A DNA stretch of 64,000 bases from Mycolicibacterium sp. (lineage in GTDB: Bacteria; Actinomycetota; Actinomycetes; Mycobacteriales; Mycobacteriaceae). Of this stretch, positions 61,254 to 64,000 are shown in pieces. The notes beneath the pieces were generated by a model. That model was given only the letters and a program-made list of their open reading frames with translations, was not told where the DNA came from and ran no database searches. The number at the start of each line of letters is the position of its first letter. The stretch's first letter is position 1. Location: the NCBI RefSeq assembly GCF_016462945.1, contig NZ_JAEMSG010000004.1, positions 1-64,000 on the forward strand, read 5' to 3'. A program made the translations under genes and the position numbers.

Positions 61254-62669
61254 TTAGGGAGAAGTCCCATCCGAGAGCGCGGCGAGGGCCACCGCTCTGC
61301 GCTCGTCGATAGCCCGGCTGACGTCTTGCAGTAACGCCGGTCGGTCGAGCAGCAACCCTTCCATCGCGATGCGTTTGATCGCGAGTACGGTGAGTTCACC
61401 CTCGGCGTAGGCATCCCCGGTGACGGGCTCGCGGGTGAGCGCGGTCTGGCCGAGGAAATCACCCTGCTGCAGGGTGCGGATCGGCACGCTCGGTCCGCCC
61501 CCGGCATCGACGCACAGCCTGATCCGGCCCTTGATCACGAACGTCATCGCCGACGGGATCTCCCCGTGGCCGAGGATGAGTTCGCCGTCGCCGTACCGGG
61601 CGAGGGTGGTGTTCGGCAATAGCGCTTCCATGTCGCAGTGGCCGAGTCGCAGAATCGGCGCGACCTTCCGTAGTGCCGCGACCCGGTGCGGTAGTGCGGA
61701 GAAGTCGTCGTCGGCACCGTCGGAGTGCAGACCGACACGCCGGGACGCGTACCACAACCACCGCTGGAACGTAGTCCTGGCGGCGGCGTCGTCGCCGGGA
61801 GAGGCCAGCGGGATCGTGGTCGTGTATCCGGTGCTGCTGGTCGCGGCCACCACCGGTGTGGCGCCGTCGCGAAGCTGCGGAAGTTTCGAGGCGACCCTGG
61901 CCAGTAGCGCGCAGACCTCGTCGGGGGCATCGGCGGCGGTGAAGGTTGACTCCACCACCAAGTTATAGCTGCCGGCGGGTCTGCTCAGATTCGCGAACGA
62001 TGCTGCCGCCAGAACGGAGTTGGGAATGATCTGCATGCCACTGCCGGTGTCGATATGTGTTGCGCGCCAATTCACCTCGGTCACTCGTCCGCGAATCACG
62101 CGGATACTCGGAATGTTGGTTTCCACCCAGTCGCCCAACTTGAACGGTTGCTCGAAGAGCAGCAGCAGTCCCGAGATGATCTGGCCAACGGAGTTCTGCA
62201 GGGTCAGGCCGAGCACGATCGAGCCGATACCCAATACGGTGAACAGCTTGCCGACATTGGCGCCCCAGACCTGGGAGAAGATCAGCGCGACGCCGAGGGC
62301 GATGATCACGAATCGGGCCACGTCGAGGAAGATCGACGGCAGCCGGCGCCGCCAACTGCCCTCGGGCGCGCCTTGGAACAGTGTGGCGTTGAGACCGGCG
62401 AGCAGCATCAGCAGTACCAGGAAGCCCAACACCGTGGTGACGATTCGCACCCCGGTCGTCTGCGCCGAGATATCGCTGGTTTGCACGATGAGAAGCAAGA
62501 CGGCACCCAGTGGCAGGACGTAGTTGCGCAGCAGGCCGACCGGCTTTGCCAACGCACTGCCTCGGCGGTTGAGGCTGTTGTGCAGTTCGGTCAGCAGCAC
62601 CAGTGCCGTCGGCAGTCCAATGGCGAGGATCAGCGCCCAGTAGAACCACGGGGCCGTCACGATGCTCAC
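61254..62669 (-). CDS. MscS-type mechanosensitive channel with C-terminal cNMP-binding-fold domain (Rv2434c-like)
   Basis: 471 residues. The N-terminal part has about five transmembrane helices ('WALILAIGLPTALVLLTEL', 'VLPLGAVLLLIVQTSDI' and others). The MscS core is 'TVLGIGSIVLGLTLQNSVGQ' and 'FEQPFKLGDWVETNIPSIRV', followed by a C-terminal cyclic-nucleotide-fold domain (about 340-455). In that domain the phosphate-binding cassette reads 'LGQTALTREPVTGDAYA', with Gln instead of the conserved Glu and no Arg where the cassette has Pro-Arg-Ala. Cyclic nucleotide binding is therefore doubtful. It starts 10 bp after the adenylate-cyclase-like gene stop. Confidence 0.9.
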   Translation of the reverse strand: MSIVTAPWFYWALILAIGLPTALVLLTELHNSLNRRGSALAKPVGLLRNYVLPLGAVLLLIVQTSDISAQTTGVRIVTTVLGFLVLLMLLAGLNATLFQGAPEGSWRRRLPSIFLDVARFVIIALGVALIFSQVWGANVGKLFTVLGIGSIVLGLTLQNSVGQIISGLLLLFEQPFKLGDWVETNIPSIRVIRGRVTEVNWRATHIDTGSGMQIIPNSVLAAASFANLSRPAGSYNLVVESTFTAADAPDEVCALLARVASKLPQLRDGATPVVAATSSTGYTTTIPLASPGDDAAARTTFQRWLWYASRRVGLHSDGADDDFSALPHRVAALRKVAPILRLGHCDMEALLPNTTLARYGDGELILGHGEIPSAMTFVIKGRIRLCVDAGGGPSVPIRTLQQGDFLGQTALTREPVTGDAYAEGELTVLAIKRIAMEGLLLDRPALLQDVSRAIDERRAVALAALSDGTSP

Positions 62670-62679
62670 GAATCACCAC

Positions 62680-64000
62680 TCATGTGTTGTCTTCGGCAAG
62701 CAGCCAGACCGGTTCCTCCCGGCCGCCGGTGGTGACCGAGCCGGCCGGGAGATAGCGCCGGGTATCCGCGGTGGCCTCGCGCACGCCGGTGGCGACGTAC
62801 ACACCGGGTTTAGCGGTGCTGCGGCGGATCGAGGCCGCCAGGTTCACCGCCGAGCCCCACATGTCGTACACCAGGCCGGCTCGTCCGACAAGTCCGCTTA
62901 TCACCGCGCCGGTGTTGATGACGACACGCAATGCGATGTGTTGATCGTTCTCGGCGTTATATCGCTCGACGATCCGCTGCATTTCGACGGCGAAGTCCAC
63001 CGTGCGCGCCACGTTGTCCAGCCGCGGAATGGTGAGCCCGCAACTGGCCAGGTAGCCGCCGTAGGTGTTGCGCACCCGTTCGACGCCCAGATCTTCGGCG
63101 GCTCGATCGAATTCGCTGGCCAGGTTGTTGATGATCGCCAACGTCTTCTCGGCATCGAGTTCGCCGGACAGGTCGTCGAGTCCGACCACGTCGGCGAAGA
63201 GAACACTGACGTTCTGATGCTCCTCGGCGATGGTCTCCTCGCCGTCACGGTACCGCTGCACCACGGTGTCAGGCATCAGGGAGCGCAGTAGGCGCTCGTT
63301 TTCGGCACGCTGCTCGGTAAGGAGTTGATCCTTGACGGCAAGATTGCGGCTCATATCGTTGAAGGCGCCTGCGAGTTGGCCGAATTCGTCGCGGGATTCG
63401 ACGGGCATGGCGATGTCGTAGTTGCCGGCGCTGATCCGTCGCGCCCCGTCTTCGAGGCGCCGGATCGGGCGGATGAAAACCCGTGACCACAGCGCAGACA
63501 CCAGGCAGGCGATAAAGATGATTCCCGCCGTGGTCCGGACAAGACGTTGAGCGAATCTGCTTTCCGGTGCGAATGCCTCCGCGCTGTCGGCGGTGGCGAC
63601 CATGACCCACTGCAGCCCTGCGAGTTTCACCGGCGCATAGGCCACCAATGCTCGGCGGCCGAGGTAGTCGGTGATGATGTCGGTCCCGGCATTGCCCCCC
63701 TGCGCGGCTTTCGACGCGGAGGTGCCGACCGGCTGAATAAGGACGGTGGTGCCGATCCGGACCGCCTGATCCGCGACAACGGCGGGTGTGCCGGCGGCGG
63801 TCACGGCTTTGCGGTAGGCGTCTGGATCTTCCAGGAACAGCCGGGAATCTGAGCGCATCCGGTCATCGGGTCCGATCAGGAATGTCTCGCCGGTCTGTCC
63901 CATCCCGACCTCGGTCCAGTTCCTGTCGAATGTCATGACCCGGTTGAGCATCGACAACGGAAACTGCATTGCCAGCACTCCGACCGGCCTGCCCACCTGT
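62680..64000 (-). CDS. Receptor-type class III cyclase-like protein, start outside the window (Rv2435c-like)
   Basis: The frame stays open to the window edge; the 63996 start in the track is internal to the sensor domain, so the gene is 5'-partial (at least 439 residues). An extracellular Cache-type domain is followed by one helix ('TTAGIIFIACLVSALWSRVF'), HAMP ('IRPIRRLEDGARRISAGNYD') and a class III cyclase domain ('VLFADVVGLDDLSGEL'). Against canonical cyclases, the first metal Asp is present, the substrate Lys reads Arg and the second metal Asp reads Gly ('VRNTYGGYLASCG'), and the transition-state Arg reads Ser ('YDMWGSAVNLAAS'). It looks catalytically impaired. It is followed by the MscS gene. 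Confidence 0.88.
   Translation of the reverse strand, partial: QVGRPVGVLAMQFPLSMLNRVMTFDRNWTEVGMGQTGETFLIGPDDRMRSDSRLFLEDPDAYRKAVTAAGTPAVVADQAVRIGTTVLIQPVGTSASKAAQGGNAGTDIITDYLGRRALVAYAPVKLAGLQWVMVATADSAEAFAPESRFAQRLVRTTAGIIFIACLVSALWSRVFIRPIRRLEDGARRISAGNYDIAMPVESRDEFGQLAGAFNDMSRNLAVKDQLLTEQRAENERLLRSLMPDTVVQRYRDGEETIAEEHQNVSVLFADVVGLDDLSGELDAEKTLAIINNLASEFDRAAEDLGVERVRNTYGGYLASCGLTIPRLDNVARTVDFAVEMQRIVERYNAENDQHIALRVVINTGAVISGLVGRAGLVYDMWGSAVNLAASIRRSTAKPGVYVATGVREATADTRRYLPAGSVTTGGREEPVWLLAEDNT

Follow-up and report, generated by a model that had tools for sequence, protein, structure and literature searches.

The window analysed here comprises bases 1-64000 of a contig of 66096 bases, from a genome of 3.17 Mb, and its far end carries two adjacent genes on the reverse strand. 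The upstream gene encodes a dCache-HAMP-class III cyclase, hereafter the pseudo-cyclase, and extends in the list of open reading frames from 62680 to 64836 or 64968, such that its 5' part lies outside the window on the same contig. The portion inside the window (62680..64000), delimited from the reading frames and Pfam matches, encodes the C-terminal 439 residues. Counted from the first GTG, at window position 64968, the frame is 762 amino acids long, although the likelier start is residue 45, at window position 64836, because it gives a one-base overlap with the stop of the upstream GH13 alpha-amylase gene. The downstream gene (61254..62669) encodes a 471-residue MscS channel, in which five predicted long helices are followed by a beta domain, and a cNMP-fold domain forms the C-terminus. 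Between the cyclase stop and the channel GTG lies a spacer of 10 nt (62670..62679), agreeing with the first-pass annotation, which had placed an MscS-cNMP gene 10 bp after a cyclase gene; the interval it gave for the pair, 61254-64000, holds the channel gene whole, but only the C-terminal part of the cyclase. This spacing is the exception, with a 4-bp overlap of start and stop found in most relatives. The GH13 gene upstream of the pair, and an antigen-85-like esterase gene downstream, were seen again by eye around two other copies (L036 and L041; window position 64836 is L005:9837).

All three Pfam domains of the pseudo-cyclase scored over their cut-offs: dCache_1 (55.3 bits, residues 238-458), HAMP (PF00672, 57.6 bits, residues 496-543, 63340..63483) and Guanylate_cyc (PF00211, 91.3 bits, residues 581-722, 62803..63228). 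The dCache domain lies between two transmembrane helices, as judged from the sequence, and is followed by HAMP, which is the arrangement of a dCache-HAMP receptor. The AlphaFold model of this protein was poor (mean pLDDT 58.9), with a pocket that could not be read and a low-confidence cyclase fold that matched CyaB, Rv1900c and Rv1625c. Active-site residues were placed with adenylyl cyclase 9 and two canonical cyclases from the same genome as alignment references. The first metal aspartate is kept as D593 (63190..63192) and the asparagine as N709. The substrate lysine is replaced by R633 (63070..63072), the second metal aspartate by G637 (63058..63060), where most relatives have asparagine, the purine aspartate by S706, and the transition-state arginine by S713 (62830..62832). 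Of the attributes of an active class III cyclase, the protein therefore has the fold, and lacks the full complement of two metal aspartates, the substrate lysine and aspartate, and the asparagine-arginine pair. The changes of the second aspartate, lysine and arginine had been listed in the first-pass annotation, and the alignments bear out every entry, while adding the lost purine aspartate and the kept asparagine that it omitted. Catalytic or cassette residues at shifted positions, which it had named as a refutation, were looked for against PDB cyclases and CNB domains and not found, so that no displaced residues rescue the site. Hence the window cyclase very probably cannot form a full class III site of the canonical kind, and canonical catalysis has in all likelihood been lost, which may be compatible with remaining nucleotide binding.

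The channel has the pore helix and beta domain of the MscS superfamily. Both of its Pfam matches exceeded their cut-offs: MS_channel_2nd for the beta domain (PF00924, 65.4 bits, residues 159-230, 61980..62195), and cNMP_binding for the C-terminal fold (PF00027, 44.1 bits, residues 358-440, 61350..61598). Its AlphaFold model was fair (mean pLDDT 72.9, with the cNMP part mostly at 70-90), matching MscS/YnaI, and the CNB-B domain of PKA RI-alpha at a TM-score of 0.73 by target length. Alignment to CRP and PKG places Q408 at the cassette glutamate and V416 at the cassette arginine, consistent with the earlier reading of both positions as altered. The fold of the bCNG channels is therefore present, with the cassette glutamate and arginine both missing. 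The same holds across the relatives: the arginine is absent from all 105 MscS homologues of two-gene loci, and the glutamate from 103 of them. Another arginine, R413 (window 61431-61433), is kept in 103 of the 105; within T-A-L-T-R-[EQ]-P, the altered cassette, it precedes the canonical position by three residues.

The significance of these cassette changes is tempered by stand-alone channels. Eight proteobacterial MscS-cNMP proteins, picked by similarity to the window protein, served as controls (L238-L245, plasmid loci); none has a cyclase nearby, yet all eight lack the cassette arginine, and half the glutamate. Hence the altered cassette alone shows neither a joint loss of the ligand nor an inability to bind nucleotide. 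Divergent cassettes appear to be common in MscS-linked cNMP domains, and the channel half of the pair is weak evidence for joint loss. These controls lack the canonical arginine, yet their architecture is the one described as cyclic-nucleotide gated: the bCNG channels, which share with the window protein a channel part and a C-terminal cNMP domain, are so reported (Caldwell 2010, cited in PMC4560390). Unlike the eight proteobacterial relatives, the actinobacterial channels come with an attached cyclase-fold receptor gene.

That attachment is strict. Among 149 genomes sampled from the genus, some match to the cyclase was found in 145, and a full-length homologue in about 119, the latter figure being a hand count. 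The MscS-cNMP gene directly follows the cyclase in all loci read, with a single exception at a contig end; wherever the contig continues, it adjoins the cyclase homologue on the same strand. Across 94 loci, the channel start and the cyclase stop share 4 bp in 76 cases and a single base in 11. The altered active site is equally general, as none of the 110 cyclases from two-gene loci keeps the lysine, two keep the second aspartate, and one keeps both metal aspartates. Moreover, the altered site is itself conserved, with R-T-x-H-N-G-Y-L-A-S-C-G or a close variant present in most of these homologues; the window motif deviates from this family consensus. No pair with an intact catalytic set turned up when about 1,700 genomes from the phylum were searched. 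The suggestion that the two partners had lost cAMP chemistry together in this pair is not supported in that form, since the same changes recur in almost every homologue, both inside the genus and outside it, and a loss event specific to the window pair was rejected on the same grounds. The one homologue with both metal aspartates (L048, genome G027) also has the transition-state arginine; its lysine is changed to arginine, its purine aspartate to alanine and its asparagine to aspartate, making it a candidate for residual activity. In two genus genomes of 3.3 Mb, the sole copy of the cyclase is a stop-riddled remnant (G076:C1:2057967-2059880 and G116:C1:1754170-1754928), which recalls the situation in the leprosy bacilli.

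The two genes also share their history. Over 112 pairs, pairwise distances in the cyclase tree track those in the MscS tree with a correlation of r = 0.98, or 0.96 within the genus. Tandem copies of the whole pair occur in five genomes of slow-growing mycobacteria (L056, L057, L058, L059 and L060), and, within a copy, the closest relatives of the receptor and of the channel correspond fully or nearly so. In a single comparison, between the window and a sister about 90% identical, dN/dS was 0.20 for the cyclase gene and 0.13 for its cyclase domain; for the channel gene it was 0.18, with 0.09 in the channel part and 0.345 in the cNMP domain, the least constrained section. The low value of the cyclase domain indicates that the cyclase fold is maintained without its catalytic set. 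Purifying selection on both genes, congruent trees and strict pairing together support the earlier treatment of the two genes as a unit. On these comparisons, the pair is a conserved putative pseudo-cyclase/MscS two-gene membrane unit of mycobacteria and some other actinobacteria, and a functional partnership of the receptor with the channel is likely.

Elsewhere in the family the pair is rare, being found in three genomes from two other genera; it also occurs in another family of the class (f39, eight genomes) and, beyond that class, in two further ones of the phylum. Within a sample of 297 genomes from the class, full-length cyclase homologues were found only in genomes also carrying the channel. 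In f39, the first aspartate is often glutamate, the second is glycine, glutamate or glutamine, and the transition-state arginine is kept in eight of nine relatives. Nine loci from the other classes show the order cyclase A, MscS, cyclase B (L208, L209, L230-L235 and L237); of the remaining loci, one is truncated where its contig stops, and one has two genes. Cyclase A of these nine loci keeps the lysine in all cases and the second aspartate in seven, with the first aspartate gone and the arginine nearly always gone, and cyclase B has lost nearly all catalytic residues. A single MscS-cNMP gene is thus flanked by two different dCache pseudo-cyclases, and this organisation suggests that a heterodimeric receptor may act on one channel. 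Since different lineages lack different aspartates, both were probably present in the common ancestor, with catalysis probably abolished on more than one occasion, an argument from parsimony that falls short of proof.

The first-pass annotation proposed that such a unit might signal by contact, and the best explanation of the whole, to which we would give an even chance, is a ligand-sensing receptor whose non-catalytic cyclase fold contacts the channel and biases its gating. The double Cache domain would sense an extracytoplasmic ligand, and HAMP would relay the resulting conformational change to a class III cyclase fold that is dimeric and has ceased to produce cAMP. This fold would serve as a protein-interaction output, touching the cNMP-fold domain predicted to sit in the cytoplasm at the C-terminus of the MscS-type channel. 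Such contact could bias the gating, or the tension threshold, of a channel that is itself predicted to open by tension. This scheme is supported by what the sequences show: the domains present, the loss of catalytic residues, the strict pairing, the shared inheritance and the purifying selection. For its central step, direct receptor-channel contact, the case is about evenly balanced. Genes of one operon are inherited together regardless of any contact between their products, and a two-fold receptor is an awkward match for a seven-fold channel. Furthermore, the altered cassette also occurs outside the pairing, and by the dN/dS estimate above the cNMP fold is under weaker constraint than the rest of the channel. 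More tentative is the broader proposal of a messenger-free receptor-channel system, in which a non-catalytic cyclase fold would directly grip the cNMP fold of an MscS channel. Such a system would span several classes of Actinomycetota, at least two lineages having given up catalysis independently while keeping the contact. There is a likeness to the KCNH channels (EAG/hERG), in which the cNMP-homology domain no longer binds cyclic nucleotides, and gating is adjusted via protein contacts. These too are channels with a cNMP fold, although the channel type is unrelated, and the domain contacts a partner within its own polypeptide rather than a separate receptor.

Alternatively, a nucleotide might still be used: the pseudo-cyclase could bind ATP or another nucleotide without turnover, or the cNMP fold could bind cAMP, or some other ligand, from a different source in the cell, through non-canonical contacts such as Arg413, with the receptor tuning the response. 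The retention of Arg413 in 103 of 105 homologues fits this idea, as do the absence of the cassette arginine from stand-alone MscS-cNMP channels, the reported gating of bCNG channels of the same architecture, and the canonical cyclases in the window's genome. It remains the doubtful option, however, as the cassette glutamate and arginine are gone in nearly all members, and in the window lineage no part of the channel is less constrained than the cNMP domain. A further alternative is that the pseudo-cyclase heterodimerises with another cyclase, completing or regulating a shared site as the mammalian C1 and C2 halves do, with the channel as a downstream target of cAMP. This seems improbable, since neither half-site is complete: one side has a single aspartate, and the other is without the lysine, purine aspartate and arginine. 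The residues that could contribute to such a site are D593 and N709 in the window protein, and the transition-state arginine kept in eight of nine f39 relatives, and cyclases A and B are paired in other classes; the strict linkage, however, is to MscS, not to a second cyclase. Very improbable is simple decay, in which both genes descend from an active ancestor and are now drifting. The stop-riddled remnants in the two 3.3-Mb genomes, and the departure of the window motif from the family consensus, would be expected under drift, but the purifying selection on both genes, the frames still open in some 119 of the 149 genomes of the genus (by hand count) and the conservation of the altered motif all oppose it.

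Should receptor-channel contact be true, a protein counted as a mycobacterial adenylate cyclase, and another counted as a cyclic-nucleotide-binding protein, would form a receptor-controlled channel outside usual cAMP signalling. It would also be a bacterial case of an enzyme fold and a ligand-pocket fold that may once have relied on a diffusible messenger and now work by contact. The data suggest a sensor that may control a channel with no synthesis of cAMP, the customary messenger, and the pairs, tandem duplicates and three-gene versions offer many natural variants for testing the contact idea. A cyclase fold without its catalytic set has a precedent in the Rv1359 type, reported in PMC3961136 (citing Shenoy 2004) to lack a metal aspartate and an essential arginine. 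There, according to that source, it is the first aspartate that is lost, whereas the window protein has lost the second, is a Cache-HAMP receptor, and lies in an operon with MscS.

In Mycobacterium tuberculosis, Rv2435c and Rv2434c are probably members of the pseudo-cyclase/MscS unit, by annotation and synteny. Published annotation makes Rv2435c a dCache adenylate cyclase (PMC4822843), and Rv2434c a membrane protein that possibly binds cyclic nucleotides (PMC11205783). A literature search found no paper treating the pair as a functional unit; a 2004 survey of actinobacterial cyclases (PMC2447327), which is indexed under both proteins, may already report the missing residues. The published Rv2435c promoter primers matched no locus among those collected. 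MSMEG_4279 was considered for the M. smegmatis member and dropped, as its own published primers likewise matched none of the loci and its number points to another cyclase. The window pair differs from Rv2435c/Rv2434c in belonging to a different paralogous clade, and in its GH13 and antigen-85-like esterase flanks. The slow-grower loci instead have a pfkB-type kinase gene and an NAD synthase gene upstream of the pair, flanks that fit the gene order of H37Rv, in which rbsK and nadE lie by Rv2435c/Rv2434c.
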